Assembly: GCA_020830965.2 (NCBI GenBank)
Contig: JACCFC020000004.1
Span: forward strand, 62,001 to 126,000
Length of the DNA: 64,000 nt
Origin: Neisseriaceae bacterium TC5R-5
Lineage (GTDB): Bacteria > Pseudomonadota > Gammaproteobacteria > Burkholderiales > Chromobacteriaceae
Reading direction: 5' to 3'
Both the position numbers and the translations under genes were made by a program. This document shows, one piece after another, positions 47,306 to 64,000 of the stretch. Under the pieces are notes generated by a model. That model was not told where the DNA came from. It did no database searches and saw nothing but the letters and a program-made list of their open reading frames with translations. Positions within the stretch are counted from its first letter, which is position 1. Each line of letters opens with the position of its first letter.

Positions 47306-48638
47306 TGGGATGCTCCTCTGGGTATCGGTAAGGCATGTTTCGTTCGACTAATATCAGTGATACGGCAAGCGTAATAGTCCCGATACGTCCTACATACATT
47401 AATAGCGCCAGCATAAGCTGGCCGGAAGGAGGAAGGTCGGCGGTAATGCCTGTAGACAAGCCAACCGTACCAAACGCGGATATCACTTCGAAAATGACTT
47501 TATCCGTTGGAAAATCGCTCACCCGCAGCAGCACCAAGGTGGCAATAGTCACCAGACTGCTACCAAGCAGCAGTACCGTAATAGCCTGGCGTTGTACCGA
47601 TGAGCTGATACGACGCCCAAACGCTTCGCTATCACCGCGCCCACGAATTTCGGCTAGCACCAGTAAAACCAGGATGGCAACAGTACCCACCTTGACCCCC
47701 CCAGCCGTGCCCGCACTACCACCGCCGATAAACATCAGCAAATAATGCACCCCCCAGCTCTCATGGGTCATGGCAGCGATATCAATAGAGTTAAACCCTG
47801 CTGTCCGCGCCGATACCGAGGCAAAAGCTGCAGAAAGCAATTTGTGCCACAAGGGCATATCACCTAGTGTCTTGGGGTTTGACCACTCGGCCAATAAGAT
47901 GGCAACAAAACCGACTACTAGGAGTATCGCCGTCCCCCAAAGAGTCAACTTAGTATGCAGAGACCAATGTCGGGGATCGAAAAATTTATTACGTAAATTA
48001 TGCAAAACAGGAAAGCCAATACCTCCTACAATAATTCCCAGCATCACCGGCAACAAAATAAGTGCATCGGAGGAGTAACTCATTAAACTGTCGGAATAAA
48101 TAGAGAAACCAGCATTATTGAAAGCTGAGATTGCATGAAACAATCCACTCCAAATGGCTTCATGCCACGGGTGGTCATAAGTGAAATGGAACCTGAGTGT
48201 AAGCAATAATGCGATTAATAACTCCGATGCGCCGGTCACCACAAATACCAGCTTGGCAACACTGGACACTTCCCCCAAGCCGATAAAACCAGACACTCGC
48301 GTTTCAACCTGAGTAATTAGCTTGGTCTGAAGCCGTAATGAGCGATTGACCATCAAACCAAGTAGCGTTGCAGTGGTCATCATGCCAAAGCCACCAATTT
48401 GGAACAAAAGCATGATGATGGTTTGGCCAAATGTAGACCAGTAGCTGCCGGTATCAACCACCACCAGGCCAGTGACACACACCGCCGAGACGGCGGTAAA
48501 AAAAGCCGTCAACCATGGCACCACCTGCCCGCTAGCATGAGCGATGGGAAGCATCAACAGCAGTGTGCCGAGCATGATCACGGAGAGAAAACTGAGGGCA
48601 ACGATCCGGGTAGGATGCAATAAAGTTTTCATATGCAC
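47295..48638 (-). CDS. ktrB: K+/Na+ uptake transporter KtrB, intact copy
   Basis: 447 aa, full length, with four M1-P-M2 repeats. Selectivity-filter loops appear as TAVSAVCVTGL, SAFNNAGFS, ASVSARTAGFNS and SAFGTVGLSTG, each with the conserved Gly. Met3 is an alternative start. Only 64 bases of its original upstream region remain before foreign AT-rich DNA begins, so its promoter may be altered; the rest of the original upstream sequence now sits behind the duplicate copy at 50483. Confidence 0.93.
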   Translation of the reverse strand: MHMKTLLHPTRIVALSFLSVIMLGTLLLMLPIAHASGQVVPWLTAFFTAVSAVCVTGLVVVDTGSYWSTFGQTIIMLLFQIGGFGMMTTATLLGLMVNRSLRLQTKLITQVETRVSGFIGLGEVSSVAKLVFVVTGASELLIALLLTLRFHFTYDHPWHEAIWSGLFHAISAFNNAGFSIYSDSLMSYSSDALILLPVMLGIIVGGIGFPVLHNLRNKFFDPRHWSLHTKLTLWGTAILLVVGFVAILLAEWSNPKTLGDMPLWHKLLSAAFASVSARTAGFNSIDIAAMTHESWGVHYLLMFIGGGSAGTAGGVKVGTVAILVLLVLAEIRGRGDSEAFGRRISSSVQRQAITVLLLGSSLVTIATLVLLRVSDFPTDKVIFEVISAFGTVGLSTGITADLPPSGQLMLALLMYVGRIGTITLAVSLILVERNMPYRYPEEHPIVG

Positions 48639-48702
48639 ACGTTATAGACAAATACATGAAGGGAAGTTAACTTAAAACCCATCAATTATAACGCGGAAAG
48701 TT
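48102..48702. repeat. Direct repeat, left copy (ktrB 5' part plus leader)
   Basis: 601 bases match 49943-50546 with a few substitutions (for example C/T in GTTTCAACCTGAG and A/G in GTTGCAGTGG) and a 3-base ATT difference at the inner edge. The repeat covers codons 1-179 of ktrB and 64 bases upstream of it. Confidence 0.97.
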
Positions 48703-49561
48703 TTTTTGATATTTTACTTTCGGACTTAACTTTTAAATTATAATTTTTTAAATCTTCAAAAAACTTACCCATTAACCCATTACCCTCTATTTCAAAATAA
48801 TTAATTAAATCTGAATGTTTATACGTCATTATGGTAAAAATACTTTCTTCAGTACCCATATAACCTTCCTGCAATGTGGATAACAACAACCCATAATAAA
48901 TTGAGTTCATATTTGAAATAGATTCTTTTGGTCCACCAAAAAAACCCGCTCTTGCAACTTTGTTGACTTTATCACCAGCAATTGAATTTAATTTATTGTA
49001 CTCAAATCCGTGTATTTCTGTACTCGCTTTATATGGAAAACAAACAAAAGAAAATTTTGAAATATATTTTTCTAAATTATTTAAGACTTTGTCGTGAGTA
49101 AAATATCTGGAGTGTATGGTATTTGTTAATCCCGCATCAATCCAAAACATATATTTTGAATCAAATCTATCTATGATTTTGGCGTCGTGTAATAAAAACA
49201 TTTTAGACATAACCAATGGGTTATACATTTCAAGTTTTGCCTGAGTTGAATCTGTCAACCAATCCACCTGATTATACCAACTCGGATTATTTCTAATATC
49301 TTGAATTAAATGATAATAATCATTAAGTCTAAACCAATCCAATGACCTTAAAATAAATTGAGTATTTTCAGAAACTCTATATTCTTTAACAAAAGAACGA
49401 AGTTCTTCGTCTCCAAATATTATCATATTCTCATCAACTTTCAAAAGTTGTTTGAATTTATCCAAATATTGTTCAAATGAACGACTCCAACCTTCAGTCA
49501 GATTACCTCTACCCAAATCCCATAAACCTGTTACTAATGTTATTTTGCTCATAAATTTCAT
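48686..49561 (-). CDS. HtrL/YibB (WlaTC)-family glycosyltransferase-like protein, horizontally acquired
   Basis: 291 aa from the ATG at 49561, with AGAAGAA 5 bases before it; Met4 (49552) begins the typical MSKITLVTGLWDLGRG. Features of the HtrL/WlaTC family: the TLVTGLWDLGRG start, MYNPLVMSKMFLLHDA, MFWIDAGLTNTIH with a DxD-like acidic site, and ARAGFFGGPK. Members act on lipooligosaccharide or capsule. Base composition is far more AT-rich than all neighbours. The last six codons and the stop lie in the ktrB-leader repeat, so the natural C-terminus may be missing by a few residues. Confidence 0.8.
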   Translation of the reverse strand: MKFMSKITLVTGLWDLGRGNLTEGWSRSFEQYLDKFKQLLKVDENMIIFGDEELRSFVKEYRVSENTQFILRSLDWFRLNDYYHLIQDIRNNPSWYNQVDWLTDSTQAKLEMYNPLVMSKMFLLHDAKIIDRFDSKYMFWIDAGLTNTIHSRYFTHDKVLNNLEKYISKFSFVCFPYKASTEIHGFEYNKLNSIAGDKVNKVARAGFFGGPKESISNMNSIYYGLLLSTLQEGYMGTEESIFTIMTYKHSDLINYFEIEGNGLMGKFFEDLKNYNLKVKSESKISKKLSAL

Positions 49562-49942
49562 TTAATTCTTCTAAAATTTTATAAAAATTTTTTTATTGCT
49601 AACATACTCCTGCATATTTTCTATATCAGGATATTTTTTCATTTTCATGTCACTAAACATCAAATTTAAACATGTTAAACAATTCTTCATGACCCCTAAA
49701 AATTAAAGTCATTATATCTTCTTCGTGATAAACTTTACTCTCTTCGAGATTCACCTCATAACCGCACTCTTAAATAACTCAACAACCATATTCCATAGCT
49801 GTTTTTTCACAAAATAATGTATTAACAACATAGCAATTTCTATTATAATTAAAAAATATTTATTATTTTTTGGCGATTATTGAAAATTTATCTTCGGTTT
49901 TTTGTATCAGATTTTTTAAAAAATTTTTATTAAATAAAAAAC
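49562..49942 (-). other. AT-rich inserted DNA with coding remnants
   Basis: No complete gene. On the minus strand there are three short frames: 49863-49931, coding a peptide like a protein C-terminus (FLKNLIQKTEDKFSIIAKK then stop); 49653-49769 (EESKVYHEEDIMTLIFRGHEE and then stop); and 49571-49648, a 25-codon frame just before the HtrL-type gene. They look like pieces of surface-polysaccharide genes of an AT-rich donor. Confidence 0.5.
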
Positions 49943-50482
49943 AGAGAAACCAGCATTATTATTGAAAGCTGAGATTGCATGAAACAATCCACTCCAAATG
50001 GCTTCATGCCACGGGTGGTCATAAGTGAAATGGAACCTGAGTGTAAGCAATAATGCGATTAATAACTCCGATGCGCCGGTCACCACAAATACCAGCTTGG
50101 CAACACTGGACACTTCCCCCAAGCCGATAAAACCAGACACTCGCGTTTCAACTTGAGTAATTAGCTTGGTCTGAAGCCGTAATGAGCGATTGACCATCAA
50201 ACCAAGTAGCGTTGCGGTGGTCATCATGCCAAAGCCACCAATTTGGAACAAAAGCATGATGATGGTTTGGCCAAATGTAGACCAGTAGCTGCCGGTATCA
50301 ACCACCACCAGGCCAGTGACACACACCGCCGAGACGGCGGTAAAAAAAGCCGTCAACCATGGCACCACCTGCCCGCTAGCATGAGCGATGGGAAGCATCA
50401 ACAGCAGTGTGCCGAGCATGATCACGGAGAGAAAACTGAGGGCAACGATCCGGGTAGGATGCAATAAAGTTTTCATATGCAC
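49916..50482 (-). pseudogene. ktrB': Truncated duplicate of ktrB
   Basis: Codons 1-177 equal those of the intact ktrB at 47295-48638. The next codons gain one Asn (SAFNNNAGFS) and then run into AT-rich DNA (VFYLIKIF and stop). Only the first of the four pore repeats and part of the second remain, so it cannot form a channel. It retains the original ktrB leader on its 5' side. Confidence 0.93.
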
Positions 50483-52770: not shown

Positions 52771-53700
52771 ATGAACTTTCAGCAACTGCGCATCGTCAGA
52801 GAAACCGTCCGCCAGAATTTTAATCTGACCGCCGTAGCTCAGGTTCTGTTTACCTCCGCCTCCGGCGTCAGCAAACATATCAAGGATCTGGAAAATGAAC
52901 TGGGGGTGGAGCTGTTTATCCGTAAAGGCAAGCGCCTGCTGGCATTAAGTGAACCGGGCAAGGAGCTGCTTGGCATGGTGGAACGGGTATTGCTGGACAC
53001 CAGTAATATCAAGCGGCTGGCAGAGCAATACAGCCAGCGCGATGAAGGCCAGCTCAGCATCGCCACCACCCATACTCAAGCACGTTATGCACTGCCACCC
53101 GTCATTAGCCGCTTCAAACAGGCCTTCCCCAAGGTACAGCTGGTGCTACACCAGGCCAGCCCGCAAGAACTGGTACGTCTGCTGCTCAATGGCGACGCCG
53201 ATATCGGTATCGCGACCGAAGCGGTAGCGGCAGTGGACGAGTTAGTCTCCTTCCCCTATTACCACTGGCACCACAGCGTGATTGCCCCTGTCGATCACCC
53301 CTTACACCAGCAGACCTTGAGCTTGCAGACACTCGCCAACTATCCGCTGATCACCTACCACCAAGGCTTTACCGGGCGCTCCGAAATCGACCAGGCCTTC
53401 AACGCAGCCGGGCTGAACGTCGATATCGTCATGTCAGCCCTGGACGCTGATGTGATCAAAACCTATGTGGCGCTTGGTATGGGCGTCGGCATCATCGCCG
53501 CCATGGCCATGGAAAACCACCACGACACCCAAGTACAAGCCATCAAGGCCCCACCGCTGTTTGCACAGCAAACCGCTCGTATCGCCATTCATCGCGGCCA
53601 TTATCTGCGTGGTTTTGCCTATCACTTCATTCAACTGTGTGCAGCGGATTTAAGCGAAGACATCATCCGGCAACAACTACACCCGACAGAGCTGATTTGA
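52771..53700 (+). CDS. CysB/Cbl-type LysR regulator of sulfur metabolism
   Basis: 309 aa. MNFQQLRIVRETVRQNFNL, then ALFTSASGVSKHIKDLE-like (VLFTSASGVSKHIKDLEN) and VELFIRKGKRLLALSEPG match the CysB winged helix. IATTHTQARYALPPVISRFKQ is the CysB effector-binding (sulfate/thiosulfate/O-acetylserine) signature. Divergent from ssuED across a 201-base spacer, so the pair is a likely target and is probably induced on sulfate starvation. The Rieske cluster begins 180 bases after its stop. Confidence 0.92.
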   Translation: MNFQQLRIVRETVRQNFNLTAVAQVLFTSASGVSKHIKDLENELGVELFIRKGKRLLALSEPGKELLGMVERVLLDTSNIKRLAEQYSQRDEGQLSIATTHTQARYALPPVISRFKQAFPKVQLVLHQASPQELVRLLLNGDADIGIATEAVAAVDELVSFPYYHWHHSVIAPVDHPLHQQTLSLQTLANYPLITYHQGFTGRSEIDQAFNAAGLNVDIVMSALDADVIKTYVALGMGVGIIAAMAMENHHDTQVQAIKAPPLFAQQTARIAIHRGHYLRGFAYHFIQLCAADLSEDIIRQQLHPTELI

Positions 53701-53879: not shown

Positions 53880-54212
53880 ATGCCAGACAACTGGATCACC
53901 ATCTGTGCTGTATCAGATATCAACGCCGACTTTCCCTACGCCAGCAAAATAGCGGGACAAGACATCGGCATCTACCAATTAGGTGACGAATACCACGCAC
54001 TGGAAGACATCTGCCCCCATGCCTACGCGCTGCTCAGCCAAGGCTTTGTTGAAGATGGCAAAGTGGAATGCCCATTGCACGAAGCAGTCTTCGATATTCG
54101 TACCGGTGCCTGCCTGCGCGAACCAGGCGGACGCGATATCAAGAAATTTCCACTACGCGTCGTCGATCAACACATTCAAGTACAGCTCAGCCTGGTCAGC
54201 GAGGAAGCCTAA
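53880..54212 (+). CDS. Rieske [2Fe-2S] ferredoxin
   Basis: 110 aa from the ATG at 53880, directly after the strong site AAAGGAGAAATA; the frame opens at 53790. CPH (Cys45, His47) and CPLH (Cys64, His67) are the four ligands of a Rieske cluster, as in ferredoxin components of ring-hydroxylating oxygenases. It should carry electrons from the FAD reductase at 58255 to the oxygenase at 54544. First gene of the catabolic cluster. Confidence 0.92.
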   Translation: MPDNWITICAVSDINADFPYASKIAGQDIGIYQLGDEYHALEDICPHAYALLSQGFVEDGKVECPLHEAVFDIRTGACLREPGGRDIKKFPLRVVDQHIQVQLSLVSEEA

Positions 54213-54214
54213 AC

Positions 54215-54523
54215 ATGCCAGCCACTCACGATTTCAATCCGCACCTGAATGCTAAACAGCAACGTAATCTGAGCCAAGAAGGCGGCCAGGGCGCCATTCA
54301 CCAGCCGGGTCAATACCAGAATCTGATCTGGCAAACACGCCCACATGCTCCCGACGCATTTACGCTCAACCTGATCGCTCAGCTAGAAACCATCTTCGAC
54401 AACGGCGAGCAGGAATTACCTCAAATCGTGGCGCAACTGAATCAGCAGCGCAGTTTTAGACGCGATGGTCAAGTCTGGACCGAAGCAAGCTTCAGCAGCT
54501 TTCTGGCCGAACAAGGTTATTGA
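54215..54523 (+). CDS. Small protein between ferredoxin and oxygenase
   Basis: 102 aa starting 2 bases after the ferredoxin stop. No signal or membrane segment. Gln/Asn-rich N-terminal half (KQQRNLSQEGGQGAIHQPGQ) and a C-terminal half, LETIFDNGEQELPQIVAQLN followed by DGQVWTEASFSSFLAEQGY, that looks like a small winged/HTH fold of the recombinase-like type. I recall similar small proteins next to ring-hydroxylating oxygenases, but could not check this. It may be an accessory or regulatory subunit; no function is assigned. Confidence 0.75.
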   Translation: MPATHDFNPHLNAKQQRNLSQEGGQGAIHQPGQYQNLIWQTRPHAPDAFTLNLIAQLETIFDNGEQELPQIVAQLNQQRSFRRDGQVWTEASFSSFLAEQGY

Positions 54524-54543
54524 GAACAAGAGGAGTCAACACT

Positions 54544-55590
54544 ATGAGCCAAACAAGCGCAGCAAACGTACAAGACTATCTCGATCAAGGCATACGTGCT
54601 TGCTGGTATCCGGTACTCGCCAGTTGGGAAGTCGCGCAACAGCCGGTCGGCATCACTAGACTGGAACAACAAATTGTTCTATGGCGTGACCAGCAAGGCC
54701 AGGTACACGCACTAGAAGACCGCTGCCCACATCGCGGAGCGCGGCTATCCATGGGCTGGAATCTGGGCGATCGTGTTGCCTGCTGGTATCACGGCGTGGA
54801 AGTCAACGCGACAGGCGTGGTCACCGACGTACCGGCGATAGACAACTGCCCACTACTCGGCCAGAAATGCCTGCAAAGCTACCCGGTGCAGGAAAAATTC
54901 GGTGCCATCTTCCTTTATTTTGGCGTGACCGCCACTGAAGAACCCGCCCCGCTCTCCTTCCCACCCGAACTTAGCGATGAAGCCAGCTATAGCCAGTTTC
55001 TGTGTACCGCCAGTTGGCACTGCAACTACCAATATGCGCTGGAAAACGTGATGGACCCGATGCACGGCAGCTATCTGCATGCCTCCTCACACTCCATGGC
55101 CGAAGGCGACCGCAAGGCACAAATGAGCCTGCAAGCCACTGAAACCGGCTTTATTTTCAAAAAAAATGAGCAATCCGGCGTCAATTTTGATTGGGTAGAA
55201 CTCGGCGTCAGCGGCTGCTACTGGATGCGTCTATCCATACCCTATCGCCAACGTTTTGGCCCCGGTGGCCATTTCTGGATTGTCGGCATGGTGGTTCCGG
55301 AAGATCGCGACAACTGCCGGGTATTTTTCTGGCGCATCCGCAAAGTACAGGGTTGGCAACGCGATTTATGGCGCTTCATGTACCGCAACCGGCTGGAAGC
55401 GCTGCACTGGGATGTGCTGGAACAAGACCGCGTGCTGCTGGAAAACATGAGCCCCAACGCCCGCGACAAGGAATACCTGTACCAGCATGATGTTGGCCTC
55501 TCCCACCTGCGCCGCCTGCTGCAAAAACAGGCCAAACAGCATCTGGCCAAACTGGCTGCCCAGCAAGAACAACAGGCGCAACCAGCATGA
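54544..55590 (+). CDS. Rieske non-heme iron oxygenase, alpha (catalytic) subunit
   Basis: 348 aa from the ATG at 54544, with GAGGAG upstream. The N-terminal Rieske domain has CPH (Cys61, His63) and CWYH (Cys80, His83). The C-terminal catalytic domain binds iron through ENVMDPMHGSYLH (His174, His179, plus a downstream Asp), with Asp171 as the electron-bridge residue. No beta subunit gene follows, so it resembles alpha-only enzymes such as phthalate or vanillate oxygenases. It would add oxygen to an aromatic or N-alkyl substrate. Stop overlaps the next start (ATGA). Confidence 0.93.
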   Translation: MSQTSAANVQDYLDQGIRACWYPVLASWEVAQQPVGITRLEQQIVLWRDQQGQVHALEDRCPHRGARLSMGWNLGDRVACWYHGVEVNATGVVTDVPAIDNCPLLGQKCLQSYPVQEKFGAIFLYFGVTATEEPAPLSFPPELSDEASYSQFLCTASWHCNYQYALENVMDPMHGSYLHASSHSMAEGDRKAQMSLQATETGFIFKKNEQSGVNFDWVELGVSGCYWMRLSIPYRQRFGPGGHFWIVGMVVPEDRDNCRVFFWRIRKVQGWQRDLWRFMYRNRLEALHWDVLEQDRVLLENMSPNARDKEYLYQHDVGLSHLRRLLQKQAKQHLAKLAAQQEQQAQPA

Positions 55591-56342
55591 ACGGCCTACT
55601 GACAGGACACCGCATCGTGATTACCGGCGCTGCCCGTGGCCTTGGCCGCAGCTTTGCCACGGCAGTCGCCAAAGCCGGAGCTAGCGTGGTGTTATGCGAT
55701 ATCCGGGCAGCCGAGCTGGAAGACACCACCGCTACGCTGCAACAGGCTGGTTTTAGCGTAGAAGCACAACTGCTGGATCTGGCCGAACCAGCCTCCATCA
55801 GGGCAGCCTTTCAAGCGATTGCTGCTGGAGGTGGCGTCGATGGTTTGATCAATAACGCCGCGCTGGCTACTGGCGTCGGCGGCAAAGACCTGATGGAGCA
55901 CGATATCGAACTTTGGGATCGTGTAATGACAGTCAATGTCCGTGGCAGTTGGCTGGTTAGCCAGGCGGCGGTGCCGCTACTCGCCCAGGCAGCCCACGGC
56001 AAGATTGTGAACATCGTGTCCGATACCGCCTTATGGGGCGCACCGCGTCTGCTGGCCTATGTCGCCAGCAAGGGCGCGCTAATAGCGATGACCCGCTCCA
56101 TGGCACGCGAACTGGGGCCGCAAGGAATTTGCGTCAACAGCATCGCCCCGGGTTTAACCCGTGTCGAAGCCACCGAATACGTACCCGAACAACGCCATCG
56201 TCTGTATGAGGATGGCCGTGCCCTCTCCCGCGCGCAATACCCGGAAGATATCGATGGCACCGCCATTTATTTACTCTCGCCGCTCGCCAACTTTGTCAGC
56301 GGACAGATGATCCCAGTAAATGGTGGATTTGTATTTAATTAA
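55587..56342 (+). CDS. SDR-family dehydrogenase 1
   Basis: 251 aa. The NAD(P) motif TGAARGLG is at 13-20, and the catalytic set Ser145, Tyr158, Lys162 (YVASK) is complete. The family is classical SDR. In context it most likely oxidises the cis-dihydrodiol or hydroxyl product of the Rieske oxygenase to a catechol or ketone. It overlaps the oxygenase stop by 4 bases, so translation is coupled. Confidence 0.9.
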   Translation: MNGLLTGHRIVITGAARGLGRSFATAVAKAGASVVLCDIRAAELEDTTATLQQAGFSVEAQLLDLAEPASIRAAFQAIAAGGGVDGLINNAALATGVGGKDLMEHDIELWDRVMTVNVRGSWLVSQAAVPLLAQAAHGKIVNIVSDTALWGAPRLLAYVASKGALIAMTRSMARELGPQGICVNSIAPGLTRVEATEYVPEQRHRLYEDGRALSRAQYPEDIDGTAIYLLSPLANFVSGQMIPVNGGFVFN

Positions 56343-56439
56343 AAATGGAGAACAAATTAACTGCTTATTTGAACTTACTTTTTATAGAGCTGCTCCATAA
56401 AAACTCATTTCCTATCGATGATTATTAAAAGAAAACAAA

Positions 56440-57249
56440 ATGAATGATGAACAACAAAAATATCTCACCCCAGGCTTGGCTCGCGGTCTGGAATTATTAT
56501 TAAAGTTCAGCCAGCAGCGTCGTGAAATGAGTTTTAGTGAATTACATGCTTTAGTCGATATGCCCAAAGCCAGTGCCTACCGCGCAGTGCAAACACTCGA
56601 GGCCATGGGTTTTTTGCAGCGAGATGTGCGGAGCAATACTTTTTCACTGGGTATGCAGGTATTAAGGCTGGGCTTTGAATATATTGCCTCGCTGGATGTG
56701 GTACAGCTAGGGCAACCAATTATTGAAGCCTTACGTGATCAAAGTTCCTATAGCAGCCATTTGGCCATACGCGATGGTCGAGAAGTGGTGTATATCGCCC
56801 GGGTGAGTGCCGCTAAATCGCTGATTAATCAGGTGAGCATTGGTAGCCGCCTGCCGGTGCACTGTACCTCGTTAGGGCGCATGTTATTGACCGACCTGTC
56901 ACGTGCAGAATTTGAACAACTTTATCCCAGTACCACCTTGCCAGTCGATGAAATCTATACCACATCAACGGATAGAGAAACACTATGGCAATTAGTGCAG
57001 CAGGACAAAGCCCAGGGTTATGTTGTTGGCGAGTCTTTTTATCGACCCGGTATTTCCTCGATTGTTTATCCGGTATTTAACCGCAGCCAGCAAGTAGAAG
57101 CTGTTGTCAGCATTATGATACCCAGTAAAAACATCCCGCTCATGCAGCAAAAAAAACTGTGTGATTATGTGGCCACAGCAGCAAATAAAATATCGGGGTT
57201 ATTAGGAGCCACAATAAGACCATCTCCCATAAATTGTTTTAGCAACTAA
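56440..57249 (+). CDS. IclR-family transcriptional regulator
   Basis: 269 aa. The winged HTH (about residues 10-75: RGLELLLKFSQQRREMSFSE, DMPKASAYRAVQTLEAMGFL) is followed by the IclR ligand-binding GAF-like domain (SSHLAIRDGREVVYIARV, GSRLPVHCTSLGRMLL, GISSIVYPVFN). IclR proteins sense aromatic or small organic acids. Its place inside the cluster suggests that it controls it. It begins 97 bases after the SDR, with its own AT-rich leader. Confidence 0.92.
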   Translation: MNDEQQKYLTPGLARGLELLLKFSQQRREMSFSELHALVDMPKASAYRAVQTLEAMGFLQRDVRSNTFSLGMQVLRLGFEYIASLDVVQLGQPIIEALRDQSSYSSHLAIRDGREVVYIARVSAAKSLINQVSIGSRLPVHCTSLGRMLLTDLSRAEFEQLYPSTTLPVDEIYTTSTDRETLWQLVQQDKAQGYVVGESFYRPGISSIVYPVFNRSQQVEAVVSIMIPSKNIPLMQQKKLCDYVATAANKISGLLGATIRPSPINCFSN

Positions 57250-57334
57250 TAAAAATAGGCAAACAATTAAAAATTAATTTCGTGGCTAAAAAGCTTTCAC
57301 ACACCACGATGATGAGTACAAAGGAGAAATAAGC

Positions 57335-58258
57335 ATGACTATCAGCGGTATCGAACGACTCGAATTCGGTGTAACAGACCCGGCATTATGCAGCCAGTTT
57401 CTGCGTGACTTTGGTTTAACGGAAAGCATCCCATCGCAGCTGTTTACCACACAAAGCGGAGCGCAACTAAGTGTGCATGATATTGCTAGCCCTCACCTGC
57501 CCCCCGCTTTTGAAAAAGGTTCCACGCTACGGCGGATGAGTTGGGCAGTGGCGGATGCCACAGCACTGGAGTCACTGGCCAAGCAATTGCAGGATTATCC
57601 GGGTACTAGCTGGCAGGGAAGCGAGCTGCAATGCATCGACCCTAATGGCCTGACCCTGCGCTTTGTCCTCAGCAAGCAGCACGAGGTCAGCACCAACACT
57701 CCAGCACTCAATCAATGGGGCGATATTCGCCGTATTGACCAGCCCAGCCCAGTATATGAGCAGGCCAGCCCGATCAATATCGGCCACGTGGTGTTTTTTG
57801 TCGACGATCTGGCCGCAATGGAAAAGTTTTATTGCGAACAACTAGGCTTTCATGTGTCCGACCGCTATCGCAACCGTGCGGTGTTTTTACGCAGCCGACA
57901 ACGCGGCCAACATCATGACCTGTTTTTACTGCATAGACCGGAACATGCGCGTGGGCTGAATCATGTGGCTTTCAATGTACGCGATATTCACGAAGTCATC
58001 GGCGGAGGTATTGCAATGAACCGCCGCGAGTGGAGCACCTTTATCGGCCCGGGTCGCCACCCGATTTCCTCGGCGTATTTCTGGTATGTCCACAGCCCGC
58101 TTGGCGGCGCGTTCGAGTACTACACCAATGATGATTATCTGACCGAACAATGGCAGCCACGTACGCTGGATTACTCATTGGCGGCCTTCACCGAATGGGG
58201 AATAGCAGGAGGGATTGATTACCAAACCCGTCGCCAGCGGCAACAGGAGCAGCCATGA
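57335..58258 (+). CDS. VOC-family extradiol-type dioxygenase
   Basis: 307 aa with two vicinal-oxygen-chelate modules, the arrangement of type I extradiol ring-cleavage dioxygenases. Metal ligands of the C-terminal module are His151 (GHVVFFVDD), His210 (LNHVAFNV) and Glu261 (GGAFEYYTNDD). LHRPEHARGLNH is a typical substrate-pocket region. It probably opens the catechol-like ring meta to a hydroxyl. The ATG is preceded by AAAGGAGAAATA, as in the ferredoxin gene, and the stop overlaps the reductase start. Confidence 0.9.
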   Translation: MTISGIERLEFGVTDPALCSQFLRDFGLTESIPSQLFTTQSGAQLSVHDIASPHLPPAFEKGSTLRRMSWAVADATALESLAKQLQDYPGTSWQGSELQCIDPNGLTLRFVLSKQHEVSTNTPALNQWGDIRRIDQPSPVYEQASPINIGHVVFFVDDLAAMEKFYCEQLGFHVSDRYRNRAVFLRSRQRGQHHDLFLLHRPEHARGLNHVAFNVRDIHEVIGGGIAMNRREWSTFIGPGRHPISSAYFWYVHSPLGGAFEYYTNDDYLTEQWQPRTLDYSLAAFTEWGIAGGIDYQTRRQRQQEQP

Positions 58259-59478
58259 GCGCCAACGAACGCAACGATGTTGGTATCGTCATCGTCGGAG
58301 GGGGTCAAGCCGCCGGCTGGGCAGCAAAAACACTGCGCGATCAAGGCTATGCTGGCCGTCTTAGCATCGTCAGCGATGAACCCTACGACTTTTACGAGCG
58401 CCCGCCCTTATCCAAAGACGTACTGCTGAGTGACAGTCACTCACCACCATTTTGCGCACTGTTTCCCGAGAGCACCGTACAAGCTTTACAACTGTGCTGG
58501 TACCGCCCACAACGCGCGGTACAGCTGGATATCAACACCCAGCAAATCCTGCTGGATAGCGGTGAATGGCTGCCCTTCACCCAGTTACTATTAGCTACCG
58601 GCGCACGTCCGCACTGGCCCGACCCCAGCTGGCAACAGCATCCGCAAGTGCTATCGCTGCGTAGCTGGGAGGATGCACAGCGTCTGCGCCAGCAACTCAA
58701 ACGATGCCGCTCGCTGGCCTTGCTGGGCGGTGGTTGGATAGGTCTGGAAATAGCAGCCGCTGCGCGTCAACTAGGGCTTAGCGTCAGCCTGTTTGAACGC
58801 GCCGAACGGCTATGCTCGCGCAGTGCCGCCGTGGAAGTCAGCCAGTACCTGGCACGCTTGCAGCAACAGCATGGCGTCACCTTGCATACCGGCTGCCAGA
58901 CATTACGGCTGGACCTGAGCCAGGCACAACCGCGAATACGTACTCCGCAAACCGAAACAGAAGCCTTTGACCTGCTGCTTGTGGGCACCGGCGTGGAGCT
59001 CAATCTGGAACTGGCCAGACAAGCCGGCTTGGCGATACGCCAAGGTGTGGTGGTGGATGGTCAGGGGCGCAGCAGCCACCCCGCTGTCTTTGCCGCTGGT
59101 GATATTGCCGAACATCCACAATTGGGTGTGTGCTTACAGTCCTGGGCCTATGCCCAGAATCAGGCGATCACTACCGCCCGGGCGATGCTGGATGCACAGG
59201 CCAGCCCGTACGACGAGCCCGCCTGGCTGTGGTCAGATCAATACGACGTCAATATTCAACTACTGGGCTTACCCGCGCCGGATCTGCAATGTGTCCAGCG
59301 CCATAGCATCGACTCTTCTCTGTTTTTCTATCTGAATGAACAGCAGCAGCTGGTGCATATGGTGGCCTGCAATGACGGTCGGGCAATCAAGCTGGGCAAA
59401 CGCTGGCTGCAAAGTGGTCGGGTACTGGATGCGGCCCAACTAAGCGACCCAGACTGTGTGCTGATGTCTTTGCGCTGA
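58255..59478 (+). CDS. FAD-dependent ferredoxin reductase of the oxygenase system
   Basis: 407 aa, BphA4/ring-hydroxylating reductase type. FAD motif VIVGGGQAAGWAAKTLRDQG at about 12-31, YERPPLSKD after it, NAD motif ALLGGGWIGLEIAAAARQLG near 158-177, and FAAGDIAEHP near 282. With the Rieske ferredoxin it makes the electron chain NADH to FAD to ferredoxin to oxygenase. It begins 4 bases inside the VOC stop. Confidence 0.93.
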   Translation: MSANERNDVGIVIVGGGQAAGWAAKTLRDQGYAGRLSIVSDEPYDFYERPPLSKDVLLSDSHSPPFCALFPESTVQALQLCWYRPQRAVQLDINTQQILLDSGEWLPFTQLLLATGARPHWPDPSWQQHPQVLSLRSWEDAQRLRQQLKRCRSLALLGGGWIGLEIAAAARQLGLSVSLFERAERLCSRSAAVEVSQYLARLQQQHGVTLHTGCQTLRLDLSQAQPRIRTPQTETEAFDLLLVGTGVELNLELARQAGLAIRQGVVVDGQGRSSHPAVFAAGDIAEHPQLGVCLQSWAYAQNQAITTARAMLDAQASPYDEPAWLWSDQYDVNIQLLGLPAPDLQCVQRHSIDSSLFFYLNEQQQLVHMVACNDGRAIKLGKRWLQSGRVLDAAQLSDPDCVLMSLR

Positions 59479-59600
59479 AGCTCACCAAATCTTGTTTGGC
59501 CACGAAGACCATCAAAAAACACGACAAAGCGCGATGCCTGCTAGCAAAAGCCTTCATTGTTCGTGTTCTTTCATGGCTAAAAATACACAGGAGATGATTA

Positions 59601-60866
59601 ATGTCCGAACCGAATGCCGCGCTGACCCTGCCTGCTAACGCAGCCATCAGTCCAGAACAAAGCCAGGCAGTCACGCTTAACTGGTCGATTCCACTGGCGC
59701 TGTTCGCCTGCGTGCTACTGGCCTTTTTCGACAAGGTCAGCATTGCCGCCCTCTTCCCCGATCCGGGCTTTCAGCAAGCGATGGGCATAGGCTTTGACCC
59801 GGTAGCACTGGGACTGCTGATGACCGCTTTCCTGCTGTCTTATGGTGCCTCTTCCATTCTACTCAGCGCCTGCGGTGATCTGTTCAGCCCAACCCGCATT
59901 CTCAGTTGCATGATGCTGAGTTGGGGGGGGCTGATGCTGCTGATGGGTCTGAGCAATAGTTACCGCAGCATGTTGCTGTTACGCATTTTGCTTGGTATTG
60001 CCGAAGGCCCGCTGTTTGCCCTCGCCTATAGCATAGTTCGGCGCAGCTTCCCCTTGCAGTTACAAGCGCGCGCCACCGTATTATGGTTATTAGGCACGCC
60101 CATTGGTGCCGCTATCGGTATTCCGCTGACCTTGTTCATGCTGCATCAATTCGGTTGGCGCAGCACCTTCTTCCTGATGGCAGGTTTGACCGTCCCGGTA
60201 CTGTTACTGGCGCTATACGGGCTGCGTCATGTGCGCTTTATCCCCCAACACACAGACAAGCGTTCAGCACCGGCCTGGGCCGAGCGCAAACAAGCCTGGG
60301 GGCAATTATTCCGCAGCCCCGCCTTCTGGCTAACCTGCACCTTCAATATCGCCTTTCTCACCTATCTATGGGGCTTGAACAGCTGGCTGCCCAGCTATCT
60401 GATTAAGGGCAAAGGTATCGATCTGAACCACGCCGGTTATCTGAGTTCGCTACCGTTTATTGCCATGTTGATCGGCGAGGTATTGGGCGCCTGGCTATCT
60501 GACCGTTTCGACCGCCGGGCACTGGCCTGTCTGATCTCGCTACTGGGTGCCAGTGGTGGCCTGGTACTAGTGCTGCTGGCACATGATGTCACGCTGGTGA
60601 TGGGGGCGATGATTATCAGCACGTTTATGTGGGGCCTAGGAGCGGCCAATATTTTTGCTCTGCTAGCCAAGGCCACGGCCAGCGGGGTGAGCGCCATGGC
60701 CGGCGGTATTTTCAATGGCCTGGGCAACTTTGCCAGTGCGTTTTCACCCATGTTGATGGGCTTATTGATTGCATTTTCACAACATCTGGATAGCGGGCTA
60801 TGGTTTTTAGTGGTGGTGGCCGTGCTGGGTAGCTTGGCGTTATTGCCCCTGGTACGGCGTTTGTAA
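59601..60866 (+). CDS. MFS transporter (ACS-like aromatic/organic acid symporter)
   Basis: 421 aa with 12 helices. FFDKVSIAALFPD in helix 1, LSYGASSILLSACGDLF, and RILLGIAEGPLFALAYSIVRR after helix 4 are the pattern of the anion/cation symporter branch of the MFS. It probably imports the pathway substrate. ACACAGGAGATGATTA leads to the ATG. Confidence 0.88.
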   Translation: MSEPNAALTLPANAAISPEQSQAVTLNWSIPLALFACVLLAFFDKVSIAALFPDPGFQQAMGIGFDPVALGLLMTAFLLSYGASSILLSACGDLFSPTRILSCMMLSWGGLMLLMGLSNSYRSMLLLRILLGIAEGPLFALAYSIVRRSFPLQLQARATVLWLLGTPIGAAIGIPLTLFMLHQFGWRSTFFLMAGLTVPVLLLALYGLRHVRFIPQHTDKRSAPAWAERKQAWGQLFRSPAFWLTCTFNIAFLTYLWGLNSWLPSYLIKGKGIDLNHAGYLSSLPFIAMLIGEVLGAWLSDRFDRRALACLISLLGASGGLVLVLLAHDVTLVMGAMIISTFMWGLGAANIFALLAKATASGVSAMAGGIFNGLGNFASAFSPMLMGLLIAFSQHLDSGLWFLVVVAVLGSLALLPLVRRL

Positions 60867-60988
60867 GTATTTTTCATGACGAAAAACACTAGAGATATGA
60901 CCTGGCACAGTCTGGCGTTTTTTGTACCCTGTCGTGATGGCAAAGTGTTAAAAAAGCAAATTTTTTCTGATATTTCTAGGAGAAACCA

Positions 60989-61528
60989 ATGGAACAAGTC
61001 CTCCATAAAACCAGCAGCAGCTCTAACTCACATGAGATTAAGCCGCTATCACTGGCAGAACGGGTAGAAGCCCGTATCGCCCGCTTCAAAGGCCGTACTT
61101 ACGATTGGAACGCACTCAAGTTCCAAGCGGATTTCGACCCCAAATACCGCCGTGCGCAAATGCGCTATATCGGCACCGGTGCAACCGGTGTGGCTAGCGA
61201 TGTCAACACGATTCCAGCTGGCGGTTTTACCTTCTCCACCATGGTGCTGCCAGCCAAATGTGAAGGCCCGCTGCATGTGCATGATGATGTCGAAGAAGTC
61301 TTTTTCATGCTCAAAGGCAATATCACCTTGTTTATTCAGGATGGTGATGAGTATTACGAAACTGCCTTGCAGGAGCGCGACCTGATCTCCGTCCCTCCTG
61401 GCATTTATCGCGGCCTGTTTAATCACGGTGAAGAAGAAGCGCTGATGTGTGTCATGCTCGGCACCCCCCAACCCATGATCCCCACCTATCCACCAGATCA
61501 CCCGCTAGCCAGCATAAAGCGAAATTAA
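60989..61528 (+). CDS. Cupin-domain protein
   Basis: 179 aa with one cupin barrel. GPLHVHDDVEEVFFMLKGN (His92, His94, Glu98 spacing by motif) is cupin motif 1; motif 2 appears as ISVPPGIYRGLFNHG. These residues could hold a metal. Cupins in catabolic clusters are dioxygenases, decarboxylases or isomerases; here the step is unknown. Ribosome site CTAGGAGAAACC. Confidence 0.87.
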   Translation: MEQVLHKTSSSSNSHEIKPLSLAERVEARIARFKGRTYDWNALKFQADFDPKYRRAQMRYIGTGATGVASDVNTIPAGGFTFSTMVLPAKCEGPLHVHDDVEEVFFMLKGNITLFIQDGDEYYETALQERDLISVPPGIYRGLFNHGEEEALMCVMLGTPQPMIPTYPPDHPLASIKRN

Positions 61529-61529
61529 C

Positions 61530-62324
61530 ATGCTCATCTCACCGCAAACCGTGGGCAACATCCGTTGGCTCAACGCGGGCTCGGGCGCGCAGCCGCTAGT
61601 GCTGCTGCATGGTATTAGCTCCCGCGCGCAATCCTGGCAGCAACAGTTTAGCGATGAGCGTCTGTTAGCGCGCTATCAATTACTAGCCTGGGATACCCCC
61701 GGCTATGGCGAGAGTAACGCGCTACCGCTTCTTGAACCGCTGGCCAGCGATTACGCCAATGCCCTGGCCTATAGTCTGGCGCAATGGTCGTTTGCGCAGC
61801 CGCCGATACTGCTTGGCCATTCACTAGGCGCGATGGTGGCAGCGGCCTATGCCGCACGTTATCCGCAGCGTATTGCTGGCCTGATCCTGGTCAGCCCGGC
61901 ACAGGGTTATGCGCATGAATCTGCGGCACAACAGCAGCAGCGTTTTGCACAGCGCTGCGAGTGGACACAGCAAATCAACGGTGCGGACGCCTATGCGGCC
62001 CAGCGCGCAGTGGCGCTGCTGCGCCCGAACGCCTCAGTTGAGGAAGTCGAACAAGTCGCCAACAGCATGCGAGCACTGCACTGCGACGGTTACCGGGCTG
62101 CTGCCTGGATGCTGACGCATGACAGCATTCATCGCTATTTGCCGGATTACCTTGGTCAAACGATGGTGTGGTGCGGTGAACAGGACACGATTACCCCACC
62201 GACCGCAGCAGAAGAACTGGCCGCGCATTATGGCTGGCCATTCCGTTTGATCACCGACGCCGGCCATGCTTGTTATCTCGATGCTCCGGACGAATTTGCG
62301 GCGTATTGCTTGCAGGGGCTTTAG
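61530..62324 (+). CDS. Alpha/beta hydrolase (MhpC/BphD-like)
   Basis: 264 aa. LLHGISS oxyanion loop, nucleophile Ser98 in GHSLGAM, acid in GEQDTITPP (about 213) and His in DAGHACYLD (about 247). The fold and the extradiol dioxygenase beside it suggest cleavage of a meta-ring-fission product (C-C hydrolase) or an ester/enol-lactone step. The gene starts 1 base after the cupin stop. Confidence 0.88.
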   Translation: MLISPQTVGNIRWLNAGSGAQPLVLLHGISSRAQSWQQQFSDERLLARYQLLAWDTPGYGESNALPLLEPLASDYANALAYSLAQWSFAQPPILLGHSLGAMVAAAYAARYPQRIAGLILVSPAQGYAHESAAQQQQRFAQRCEWTQQINGADAYAAQRAVALLRPNASVEEVEQVANSMRALHCDGYRAAAWMLTHDSIHRYLPDYLGQTMVWCGEQDTITPPTAAEELAAHYGWPFRLITDAGHACYLDAPDEFAAYCLQGL

Positions 62325-62425
62325 TTATGGGGACTTTATCCGCCATACAAATCACAAAATATAAAAACCAGGACTGACAACTGGCTCGGTAATTCAACAA
62401 ACCGTTCACAAAGGAGAAATACCCT

Positions 62426-63220
62426 ATGCACAGCCAACTCAGCCAGCGCATCGCCGTCGTGACTGGCGGTTCCTCCGGCATTGGTCTGGCCACCGTGCGC
62501 CTGCTATTAGCTGAAGGGGCAAAGGTCGCTTTCTGCGGACGTGATCACGATCGCTTAGCCACAGCGGAACAACAGCTAAAACAAGCATTTCCACAAGCAG
62601 ACTTATTAGCCCTGTCATGTGATGTACTCAATGAAGAACAGGTGCACCACTTTGCCCAGCAAGTACAGCAGCACTTCGGCGGCGTGGATGTACTGATCAA
62701 TAATGCTGGACAGGGCTTTGTGGCACATTTTGACGACACCCCCAGCGAGCGCTGGTTGCTGGAAGCACAGCTTAAGCTGTTTGGCGTCATCTATCCGGTA
62801 CAGGCGTTTATGTCGGCACTGCAAGCCTCGGACATTGCCTCCATCACCTGCGTCAATTCGCTGCTGGCGCTGCAACCCGAGCCACATATGATCGCCACCT
62901 CAGCCGCCCGCGCCGCCTTGCTGAATATGACGCTGACGCTGGCGCATGAGTTGGCGCCGAAAAACATCCGCGTTAACTCCATCCTGCTGGGCATGGTGGA
63001 CTCCGGTCAATGGCGGCGACGCTATGCCGAACGCAGTGACCCACAGCAAAGCTGGGCAAGCTGGAGCAGCGAACTGGCACAACGGCGCGGCATCCCCTTG
63101 GGCAGGCTAGGCCAGCCAGAAGAAGCCGCACAAGCCTTACTGTTTCTGGCCTCTCCGCTGGCAGCCTTCACCACCGGTGCCGCGCTGGATGTCTCTGGTG
63201 GTTATAACCGCCATCTATAG
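62426..63220 (+). CDS. SDR-family protein 2 with a non-canonical active site
   Basis: 264 aa. The nucleotide motif TGGSSGIG (13-20) and INNAG (91-95) are normal, and Ser145 is kept. At the YxxxK position the protein has Thr158 and Arg162 (TSAAR). Without the catalytic Tyr/Lys it cannot work as a classical dehydrogenase and may be a lyase, isomerase or regulator. I recall related proteins with the same TSAAR motif in other AspDH clusters. The ribosome site AAAGGAGAAATA repeats that of the ferredoxin and VOC genes. Confidence 0.88.
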   Translation: MHSQLSQRIAVVTGGSSGIGLATVRLLLAEGAKVAFCGRDHDRLATAEQQLKQAFPQADLLALSCDVLNEEQVHHFAQQVQQHFGGVDVLINNAGQGFVAHFDDTPSERWLLEAQLKLFGVIYPVQAFMSALQASDIASITCVNSLLALQPEPHMIATSAARAALLNMTLTLAHELAPKNIRVNSILLGMVDSGQWRRRYAERSDPQQSWASWSSELAQRRGIPLGRLGQPEEAAQALLFLASPLAAFTTGAALDVSGGYNRHL

Positions 63221-63230
63221 GAGGCTTATC

Positions 63231-64000
63231 ATGCAAAAAATCATGCTGATCGGCTATGGCGCTATGGCCCAGGCGGTGATTCAGCACCTGCCAGCCAAGC
63301 GGCTGGGCTGGATTGTGGCTCGCCCTCATCACCATGCGGCCATCCAACAGCGCTTTGGCGGTCAGGTCGCCGCGCTGACCCATCCGCTAGCCTGCGACGG
63401 CCACCCGGCACTGGTGGTGGAATGCGCCAGTCAGCAGGCCATCGCCGATTTCGCTACCGAGATACTGACGCAAGGCTGGTCACTGGCTTTGATATCGGTG
63501 GGTGCACTGGCCAACGCTGCGTTACAACAAAAACTGCAACAAGCCACCCGCCAGCCCGGACAGTTGCAATTGCTGGCCGGAGCCGTCGCCGGCCTGGAGG
63601 CTCTGCGGGCAGCACGCCACGGTGGTCTGGAGCAAGTCAGCTATCAGGCCAGCAAGCCACCGGCGGCCTGGCGCGGCAGCCTCGCCGAACAATGGCTGCC
63701 ACTGGATCAACTCAGCTGTGCGCAGACTTTTTTTGAAGGCAGCGCCCGCGAGGCCGCGCAGCGCTTTCCGGCCAATGCCAATGTTGCGGCAAGCATCGCG
63801 CTGGCCGGGCTCGGCCTTGATCGCACCCGTGTCAGCCTGCAAGCCGACCCCGGCTTACAGCGCAATCGCCACACCATCCATGCCCACGGCCAGTTTGGCG
63901 ATTTCACTATCCAACTAAATGGCAACCCGCTGCCGGGTAACCCGAAAACCTCACTGCTAGCCGCCCTCAGCGTGGTAGAAGCCTGCCGCCAATTGTGGCT
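63231..64000 (+). CDS. Aspartate dehydrogenase-like protein (partial; 3' end off the right edge)
   Basis: 256 of perhaps ~265 codons. An N-terminal Rossmann motif GYGAMA (8-13) is followed by the AspDH domain: LISVGALAN, LLAGAVAGLEALRAAR, FPANANVAASIALAGLGLD and the NxH segment NRHTIHAHGQFGDF with His214, probably catalytic. The family oxidatively deaminates L-aspartate to iminoaspartate or runs in reverse; paralogues in catabolic clusters may use other amino/imino acids. The site AGGAGG overlaps the SDR stop. Confidence 0.9.
   Translation, partial: MQKIMLIGYGAMAQAVIQHLPAKRLGWIVARPHHHAAIQQRFGGQVAALTHPLACDGHPALVVECASQQAIADFATEILTQGWSLALISVGALANAALQQKLQQATRQPGQLQLLAGAVAGLEALRAARHGGLEQVSYQASKPPAAWRGSLAEQWLPLDQLSCAQTFFEGSAREAAQRFPANANVAASIALAGLGLDRTRVSLQADPGLQRNRHTIHAHGQFGDFTIQLNGNPLPGNPKTSLLAALSVVEACRQLW

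Follow-up and report, generated by a model that had tools for sequence, protein, structure and literature searches.

Genes that probably serve the aerobic breakdown of kynurenic acid (4-hydroxyquinoline-2-carboxylate), and also that of quinaldic acid where a molybdenum hydroxylase has been added, form a cluster at the end of the window analysed here, a stretch of 64,000 nucleotides from Neisseriaceae bacterium TC5R-5 (contig JACCFC020000004.1; G000:C83:62001-126000 in our numbering). We infer the substrate and every reaction; the gene content, the linkage, the catalytic residues and, at some loci, the adjoining molybdenum hydroxylase genes were observed. Kynurenic acid is a breakdown product of tryptophan and a neuroactive host metabolite, and it occurs in the gut, in urine and in food. 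Should the assignment hold, enzyme activities described in the 1960s gain their genes, organisms that remove kynurenate or quinaldate become readable from genomes, and generically named genes ("VOC family protein", "recombinase-like HTH", "aspartate dehydrogenase") are placed in many common bacteria. It would also make four unusual proteins testable: the second short-chain dehydrogenase/reductase (SDR2), the cupin, the small HTH_62 protein and a catabolic aspartate dehydrogenase (AspDH).

Gene content and conservation of the cluster

Open reading frames and domain profiles place twelve genes in positions 53880-64000, all on the plus strand (Table 1). The initial annotation had described eleven co-directional genes there; the eleven proteins that it named were all found on this strand with the domain content described, and the twelfth, a PF20552 (HTH_62) protein encoded between the ferredoxin and the oxygenase, had been overlooked. 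The extent that it gave the cluster holds inside the window but not past its end, where the genes continue in the downstream stretch of the same contig (L082) with an aldehyde dehydrogenase (ALDH), a thiamine-diphosphate (TPP) enzyme and an outer-membrane protein (OMP). The complete order is ferredoxin, HTH_62, Rieske oxygenase (RO), SDR1, IclR, VOC, ferredoxin reductase (FNR), MFS, cupin, hydrolase, SDR2, AspDH, ALDH, TPP enzyme and OMP, with successive intergenic gaps of 2, 20, -4, 97, 85, -4, 122, 122, 1, 101, 10, -32, 3 and 80 bp. Such co-directional, close-packed genes may form a single transcription unit.

Table 1 Genes of the cluster (L082, downstream stretch outside the window)
Feature	Position	Strand	Basis and proposed role
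Rieske-type ferredoxin	53880..54212	+	PF00355; AndAb/HcaC-like, under NCBIfam cut-offs
Small HTH_62 protein, 102 aa	54215..54523	+	PF20552, E=3.3e-20; proposed oxygenase accessory
Alpha-only Rieske oxygenase (RO), 348 residues	54544..55590	+	PF00355 + VanA_C; proposed kynurenate 7,8-dioxygenase
SDR1	55587..56342	+	Y158/K162, D38; proposed NAD-dependent dihydrodiol dehydrogenase
IclR regulator	56440..57249	+	PF09339 + PF01614
VOC extradiol dioxygenase	57335..58258	+	HpaD/catechol 2,3-dioxygenase-like; proposed 7,8-dihydroxykynurenate 8,8a-dioxygenase
FAD ferredoxin reductase (FNR)	58255..59478	+	PF07992 + PF14759; HcaD/AndAa-like, under cut-offs
MFS transporter	59601..60866	+	PF07690; fixed position in core; proposed substrate importer
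Cupin	60989..61528	+	PF07883; proposed ring-cleaving dioxygenase for pyridine intermediate
Alpha/beta hydrolase	61530..62324	+	S98, D219, H246; proposed to act on cleaved ring
SDR2, PRK07062 family	62426..63220	+	NF005468, 430 bits (cut-off 266); proposed NADPH-dependent side-chain C=C reductase
AspDH-like enzyme	63231..64000, stop 34 bp past window (L082:1034)	+	NF009828, 358 bits (cut-off 177)
Aldehyde dehydrogenase (ALDH)	L082:1003-2505		Downstream of AspDH
Thiamine-diphosphate (TPP) enzyme	L082:2509-4146		Three-domain, decarboxylase-like
Outer-membrane protein (OMP)	L082:4227-5084		Named by appearance; without Pfam match

Species genomes were scanned with the VOC protein, and the best 80 of 148 relatives were taken as loci L002-L081. 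The 13 core genes, i.e. the cluster without the IclR gene (variable in position) and the OMP gene, are all present in the same order and strand in 74 of these 80 loci, far above chance, and the remaining six (L006, L010, L012, L037, L069 and L071) run into contig ends. The co-directional cluster described in the initial annotation is confirmed. The set expected of a kynurenate pathway, with an oxygenase, a dihydrodiol dehydrogenase, an extradiol dioxygenase, a 2-oxoacid decarboxylase and ALDH, is accordingly encoded together in 74/80 loci, and AspDH, ALDH and the TPP enzyme are contiguous in every complete one.

A kynurenate 7,8-hydroxylase, a 7,8-dihydroxykynurenate dehydrogenase and an 8,8a-dioxygenase were reportedly described from Pseudomonas in the 1960s by Hayaishi, Taniuchi, Kuno, Horibata and others. 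In this pathway kynurenate is reportedly converted through the 7,8-dihydrodiol, 7,8-dihydroxykynurenate and 5-(3-carboxy-3-oxopropenyl)-4,6-dihydroxypicolinate to the saturated form of the latter, then to the formylethyl and carboxyethyl compounds and finally to small acids and glutamate. To our knowledge these enzymes are known as activities only, without sequence. The order predicted from the cluster is the same, from dihydroxylation through aldehyde oxidation to ring opening; AspDH, the cupin and HTH_62 are additions to the classic pathway as it is said to run, and the link to genes is proposed here. The initial annotation knew of no pathway with exactly this set, which is probably wrong, because the set fits the reported kynurenic acid pathway once the ALDH and the TPP enzyme beyond the window are added to it.

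Catalytic residues and proposed reactions

Residues were followed in alignments of 52-54 relatives per protein and are called kept when found in at least 97% of rows (window numbering; a stop sign was deleted in 5 of the 514 segments underlying the alignments). The catalytic roles and homologous positions given are those usual for the enzyme families concerned.

Uptake would be by the MFS transporter (and the OMP), under regulation by IclR. In the first step, RO together with the ferredoxin and the FAD reductase would dihydroxylate C7 and C8. C61, H63, C80 and H83 as well as D171, H174, H179 and D295 are kept in the 54 RO rows; the Rieske motif (CxH..CxxH), the 2-His-1-carboxylate site, a ferredoxin and a reductase are present and a beta subunit gene is absent, so that the three-component, alpha-only oxygenase named at the outset is confirmed. 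The nearest solved sequences are phthalate 4,5-dioxygenase-like, carbazole dioxygenase and dicamba demethylase, aligned over part of the 348 residues, chiefly the N-terminal half, with E values of 1e-20 or weaker. Carbazole 1,9a-dioxygenase, dicamba demethylase, LigX and 2-oxoquinoline 8-monooxygenase share with RO the combination of an alpha-only oxygenase, a Rieske ferredoxin and a reductase; three of these four systems are among the nearest solved sequences, whereas their substrates and gene neighbours differ from those of the cluster. A VanA_C-type oxygenase might instead perform O-demethylation or another monooxygenation and so yield a catechol for the VOC enzyme, as the domain itself, the place of dicamba demethylase among the nearest structures and the existence of three-component alpha-only demethylases such as LigX would allow. 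However, carbazole dioxygenase is at least equally near, and SDR1, with its classical SDR residues, comes next after the oxygenase in all 74 complete loci, as a dihydrodiol dehydrogenase would; we consider this alternative very unlikely.

After cis-dihydroxylation, SDR1 would oxidise the dihydrodiol to 7,8-dihydroxykynurenate with NAD+. It has N117/S145/Y158/K162 and D38, the last a sign of NAD+, and Y158/K162 with D38 occur in 53 of 54 rows; the exception, L172, matches weakly (26%) and is located where another SDR stands. The VOC enzyme would then cleave the C8-C8a bond to give 5-(3-carboxy-3-oxopropenyl)-4,6-dihydroxypicolinate. A 2-His-1-Glu triad and an acid/base histidine (H151, H210, E261 and H194) are found in all 53 rows, and the fold family and the metal and active-site residues are common to the HpaD/catechol 2,3-dioxygenase group of type I extradiol enzymes. 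The match to the HpaD profile reaches 74 bits against a cut-off of 321, and by sequence the VOC enzyme is a subfamily separate from HpaD. Conserved catalytic residues thus support the succession of ring hydroxylation, dehydrogenation and meta cleavage that the initial annotation had read from the gene order.

In the fourth step, among the least certain, SDR2 would use NADPH to reduce the side-chain double bond. SDR2 lacks the classical Ser-Tyr-Lys set, with T158/R162 in place of YxxxK in 53 of 54 rows and S/R in one, and R39, a sign of NADPH, is present in all 54. The loss of the tyrosine recalls dienoyl-CoA reductases, and we regard SDR1 as the enzyme that oxidises and SDR2 as one that reduces. 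The TPP enzyme, which keeps E53, G432-D433-G434 and N459, would next decarboxylate the 2-oxo acid to an aldehyde, and ALDH would oxidise this to 5-(2-carboxyethyl)-4,6-dihydroxypicolinate. A naphthalene- or biphenyl-type meta pathway was rejected: no hydratase-aldolase is found among the scanned cluster proteins, and the TPP enzyme and ALDH are present. The initial annotation had called the hydrolase C-C hydrolase-like; the serine hydrolase residues S98, D219 and H246 are kept in the 52 rows, but a role on the meta-cleavage product is not required, and the TPP decarboxylase with ALDH explains the cleaved side chain better.

The closing steps would need an oxygenase, a hydrolase and an iminosuccinate reductase, and the cupin, the serine hydrolase and AspDH are the three enzymes left over. 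The cupin (with O2) and the hydrolase (with H2O) would convert the pyridone to 2-oxoglutarate and iminosuccinate, again among the least certain steps, and AspDH would reduce iminosuccinate to L-aspartate, retaining the nitrogen. By our own arithmetic the first of these reactions balances as C9H9NO6 + O2 + H2O -> C5H6O5 (2-oxoglutarate) + C4H5NO4 (iminosuccinate), and the formulas of the whole proposed route balance with each enzyme used once. Kynurenate would explain AspDH because the ring part N1-C2(COOH)-C3-C4 would give iminosuccinate. H214, N182, N184 and K142 of this enzyme are kept in 52 rows, and its score exceeds the cut-off of the family model (Table 1), seven other matched models staying under theirs. 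The profile fit is shared with the NadX aspartate dehydrogenase family (PRK13303), but the setting here is catabolic, and we propose that the enzyme reduces iminosuccinate from the pathway and does not feed NAD synthesis.

In the cupin, H96, H98 and E103 are present in all 52 rows, and R141 replaces the last cupin histidine in 50 of them, the histidine being present only in L163 and L166; the full ligand set of metal-dependent dioxygenases of the quercetinase or acetylacetone-cleaving type is therefore lacking. The core of the cupin model (mean pLDDT 65) matches many cupins, Ni-quercetinase among the best, and leaves the function undecided, so the dioxygenase role is proposed. With three metal ligands conserved and cupin reactions as diverse as they are, the kynurenate route might also run to the sixth step and then split the pyridone hydrolytically (retro-Claisen) to glutarate and iminosuccinate, with the cupin as hydrolase, isomerase or decarboxylase. 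This would be a variant within the kynurenate assignment and not exclusive of it, yet we regard it as rather unlikely. The glutarate hydroxylase CsiD was not found in five of seven genomes or records, which include the window genome and one plasmid-only record (two hits, one of them weak at 26.7 bits; other glutarate routes were not searched), and its absence makes glutarate less likely as an end product. PMC11354673, citing Horibata 1961, gives glutamate, alanine and organic acids as what certain pseudomonads form from kynurenate, and glutamate formation fits 2-oxoglutarate better than glutarate.

In all 79 of the L002-L081 loci that hold an oxygenase, the HTH_62 gene is found no more than 150 bp upstream of the oxygenase gene. 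Its profile was also found in 15 of 15 oxygenase-bearing loci of Burkholderiales type, by which we mean versions from the order of the window plus Caballeronia, Burkholderia and Cupriavidus; the 6-kb contig L110 has neither gene. At 1e-3 an HTH_62 hit occurs in 29 of 398 genomes (22 above cut-off) and in none of 14 control genomes, and in all nine cluster genomes of the 398 it stands beside the oxygenase. Eight loci were examined from the other 20 genomes: six have relatives of RO (45-48%), SDR1 (50-58%) and the cupin (30-35%) within a few kb, and the remaining two are L168, a serine-recombinase-like protein, and L169, without relatives of these three. Invariant residues occur in the N-terminal and helical parts alike; in the model (mean pLDDT 69) a low-confidence N-terminal part is followed by a helical C-terminal part, and the function is left undecided. 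The name "recombinase" derives from the domain family only, and we propose, as one of the least sure of our assignments, that HTH_62 is an accessory protein or a specific regulator of this oxygenase.

Three of the loci found with HTH_62 (L164, L165 and L167) have relatives of HTH_62, RO, SDR1 and the cupin, without VOC or TPP genes in the examined stretch, and most have a sulfatase-like gene, a flavin monooxygenase and TRAP-type transport genes nearby (by eye, from sequence starts). They perhaps represent a related pathway for a sulfated aromatic.

We hold only tentatively a broader proposal, according to which the cluster would supply the missing kynurenate genes across Klebsiella, Enterobacter, Serratia, Providencia, Acinetobacter and Burkholderiales. 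In it, an SDR of a new kind, with TxxxR where YxxxK is usual, would reduce a conjugated double bond; a new cupin would cleave the pyridone into 2-oxoglutarate and iminosuccinate; AspDH would capture the nitrogen; and HTH_62 would be an obligate oxygenase partner and not part of a recombinase.

Molybdenum hydroxylases and the nature of the substrate

A second cluster copy on plasmid pNK84 of Caballeronia NK8 consists of ferredoxin, HTH_62, oxygenase, TPP enzyme, VOC, the large, medium and small subunits of a molybdenum hydroxylase, and a CoxG-like gene in one co-directional run, with gaps of 1, 47, 106, 56 and 198 bp and overlaps thereafter. The TPP gene stands here next to RO and VOC and AspDH is absent; the joint run of the TPP enzyme with RO and VOC fits decarboxylation of the extradiol product. 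Genome G328 has orthologues of the pNK84 hydroxylase subunits and CoxG (64, 61, 84 and 61%) in the same order about 6 kb past the VOC gene. A different, two-subunit hydroxylase, which we take to be IorAB-like, lies about 6 kb past the VOC gene, with IclR between, in G255 and Cupriavidus campinensis (90-94% mutual identity). A molybdenum hydroxylase is thus linked at four of the 16 Burkholderiales-type loci, in the same run at one and some 6 kb off at three, two of these loci being on short contigs. With 15 hydroxylase-domain matches in G255 and 12 in G328, about 0.04 would be expected per 20 kb by our own arithmetic; chance is an unlikely explanation of the four linkages, and the single run in Caballeronia carries most weight. 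A molybdenum hydroxylase beside the cluster is what would be expected for 4-hydroxylation of quinaldate. The solved relatives of the NK8 large subunit include, from the first to the last, 4-hydroxybenzoyl-CoA reductase, 6-hydroxypseudooxynicotine dehydrogenase, a CO dehydrogenase and quinoline 2-oxidoreductase, and do not point to a particular substrate. Two further matches were left uncounted, the hydroxylase of L165 (28% to that of L172, near a guanine-deaminase-like gene by eye), which was taken as purine use, and the hydroxylase subunits matched at L113, which is no cluster.

This linkage suggests an N-heteroaromatic substrate, as the initial annotation had supposed from the AspDH-like enzyme. 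An aromatic without ring nitrogen would demand that AspDH, the TPP enzyme and ALDH process an amino-acid side chain by way of the 2-oxo acid and the aldehyde to the acid, and that RO and VOC degrade the ring, and the adjacency of the three genes in the 74 complete loci could indeed be an Ehrlich-type module. Such a reading leaves the molybdenum hydroxylase in the NK8 run unexplained, does not sit well with a TPP gene beside RO and VOC where AspDH is absent, and conflicts with the preference of the AspDH family for aspartate and iminosuccinate; it appears highly improbable. It is unlikely, too, that the same chemistry serves another N-heteroaromatic acid, such as xanthurenate, another quinoline- or pyridine-fused carboxylate or an alkaloid from plants or insects, kynurenate being a minor substrate or none. 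The hydroxylase linkage says just "N-heteroaromatic", and a flavin monooxygenase, a diverged oxygenase (49-53%) and a sulfatase-like or GH3 gene in or near some versions suggest varied entry substrates; but the core is uniform in 74 loci, and AspDH would need a product with N-C(COOH)-C-C, which 4-oxygenated quinoline-2-carboxylates would give directly.

We also considered the lumichrome pathway, but set it aside. As far as the accessible part of PMC12746152 describes it, the lum cluster of Nocardioides simplex (lumichrome/riboflavin catabolism) resembles the present one in its Rieske dioxygenase, xanthine-oxidase-type hydroxylase, thiamin-dependent decarboxylation, extradiol enzyme and N-heteroaromatic substrate, but differs in a P450, uracil-ring amidases, an alpha/beta oxygenase, the organism and the products, and AspDH is not mentioned there.

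Several points tell against kynurenate. Among the 127 loci searched, within the stretch examined, a molybdenum hydroxylase was found at none of L002-L081 and was absent from 12 of the 16 Burkholderiales-type loci; such enzymes are common (8-15 domain matches each in six of eight genomes, none in two), and two of the four linked cases (G255 and G328) belong to one genus. SDR2 is without the catalytic Tyr/Lys, so its reaction is loosely assigned, and the cupin is missing the fourth ligand that is usual and has a poor model. The GH3 gene in Novosphingobium and the sulfatase-like gene near three other versions are unexplained by kynurenate. In the annotated records examined, the genes named around the cluster include none of the kynurenine pathway. 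Tryptophan dioxygenase was found in three of seven genomes or records, the window genome included, on another contig or far from the cluster, and was not found in the other four (E. cloacae, A. nosocomialis, P. rettgeri and one plasmid-only record), where the substrate would then come from outside.

Distribution, expression and surroundings

The carriers among the best 80 of 148 relatives include Enterobacter, Klebsiella, Raoultella, Serratia, Citrobacter, Kluyvera, Providencia and Yersinia, and further Erwinia, Aeromonas, Acinetobacter, Marinobacterium, Neisseriaceae metagenome-assembled genomes and others. Many of the bacteria that share the cluster come from soil, insects or the gut. For the genus Serratia, S. 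marcescens 2CC-1 has reportedly been described on quinaldate. Identity to the window proteins in L002-L081 is 65-77% for the oxygenase, 71-82% for the cupin, 64-77% for ALDH, 58-65% for VOC, 37-52% for the hydrolase and 32-56% for HTH_62. In 66 of the 80 loci the IclR gene is placed between those of SDR1 and VOC. The window OMP has no match in L002-L081, and relatives at 43-44% occur within the clusters of two genomes from its own genus. Burkholderiales-type versions are rearranged in gene order with the enzymes retained: L103, L104, L109, L111 and L112 have a more diverged oxygenase (49-53%) placed after the VOC gene, and in L105 a one-piece flavin/iron-sulphur reductase replaces the HcaD-like reductase. 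Remoter versions with ABC-transporter-like genes lie outside the class of the window (L162, L163 and L166).

In the phylum sample, a VOC match at 1e-40 or better occurs in 11 of 398 genomes, nine with the cluster and two (G023 and G276) without; G322 has one cluster copy and one unrelated 35% VOC match. Matches at 30-39% identity (L106, L107, L108 and L113) proved by their neighbourhood not to be this cluster. The plasmid collection has a VOC match in 24 records, two at just 31-35%, from Klebsiella, A. baumannii, Caballeronia, Burkholderia, Cupriavidus, Novosphingobium and Massilia. The E. coli genome collection gave no near match to a 10-kb stretch taken from the E. cloacae cluster. Annotated cluster records bear generic gene names only, and no paper in the searched literature (titles and abstract beginnings; bioRxiv and most subscription journals outside coverage) assigns a substrate to a gene set of this kind. 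The description of the cluster as uncharacterised therefore stands for the sources searched; however, it is not rare. In Novosphingobium resinovorum plasmids L126 and L127 the cluster version is adjoined by a GH3 glycoside hydrolase, a TonB receptor and an NMT1/THI5-like binding protein (Pfam for L126), which hints at a glycosylated substrate.

In A. baumannii grown with mucin, A1S_0954, A1S_0956, A1S_0957 and A1S_0958 are up 2.2-3.7-fold according to PMC5757984, where they are annotated as alpha/beta hydrolase, aspartate dehydrogenase, betaine-aldehyde dehydrogenase and acetolactate synthase large subunit, respectively. Matched by order and annotation only, they are probable orthologues of the cluster tail.

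The window copy was probably gained horizontally, as suggested by tree placement, distribution in the genus and G+C content. In the TPP-enzyme tree it groups with Enterobacterales rows (100/99), on a long branch whose exact place is unsettled, and copies from two genomes of its genus are placed with the Burkholderiales type; of 18 genomes of the genus, two have a VOC match at 1e-40; and the cluster part has 55% G+C against 51% in the rest of the window. Around the clusters of L109 and L111, listed as the genus of the window, the G+C content is 66-67%, compared with 51-52% at L082 and L083, an unusually large spread for one genus.

A 15-base motif, TTTCRTGGCTAAAAA, lies in three intergenic gaps of the cluster (57278-57292, 59569-59583 and 60872-60886, with 0, 0 and 2 mismatches). 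It is absent from the remaining window at up to two mismatches, three or more copies arose in one of 100 shuffles, and it may be a regulatory site or a small repeat element. The LysR gene before the cluster (52771-53700) has no counterpart in L002-L081 and is not conserved with it; the FMN reductase and luciferase-like genes ahead of LysR were left out as divergent neighbours. Elsewhere in the window, at 47295-50482, part of a TrkH-type gene is present twice, with at least 300 bp at 48114-48413 recurring at 49958-50257 (99%). Between the repeats lies an AT-rich stretch (34% G+C in 48001-50000) with an HtrL_YibB-family gene at 48686-49561, and the region looks like an insertion with duplication of the 5' part of trkH.

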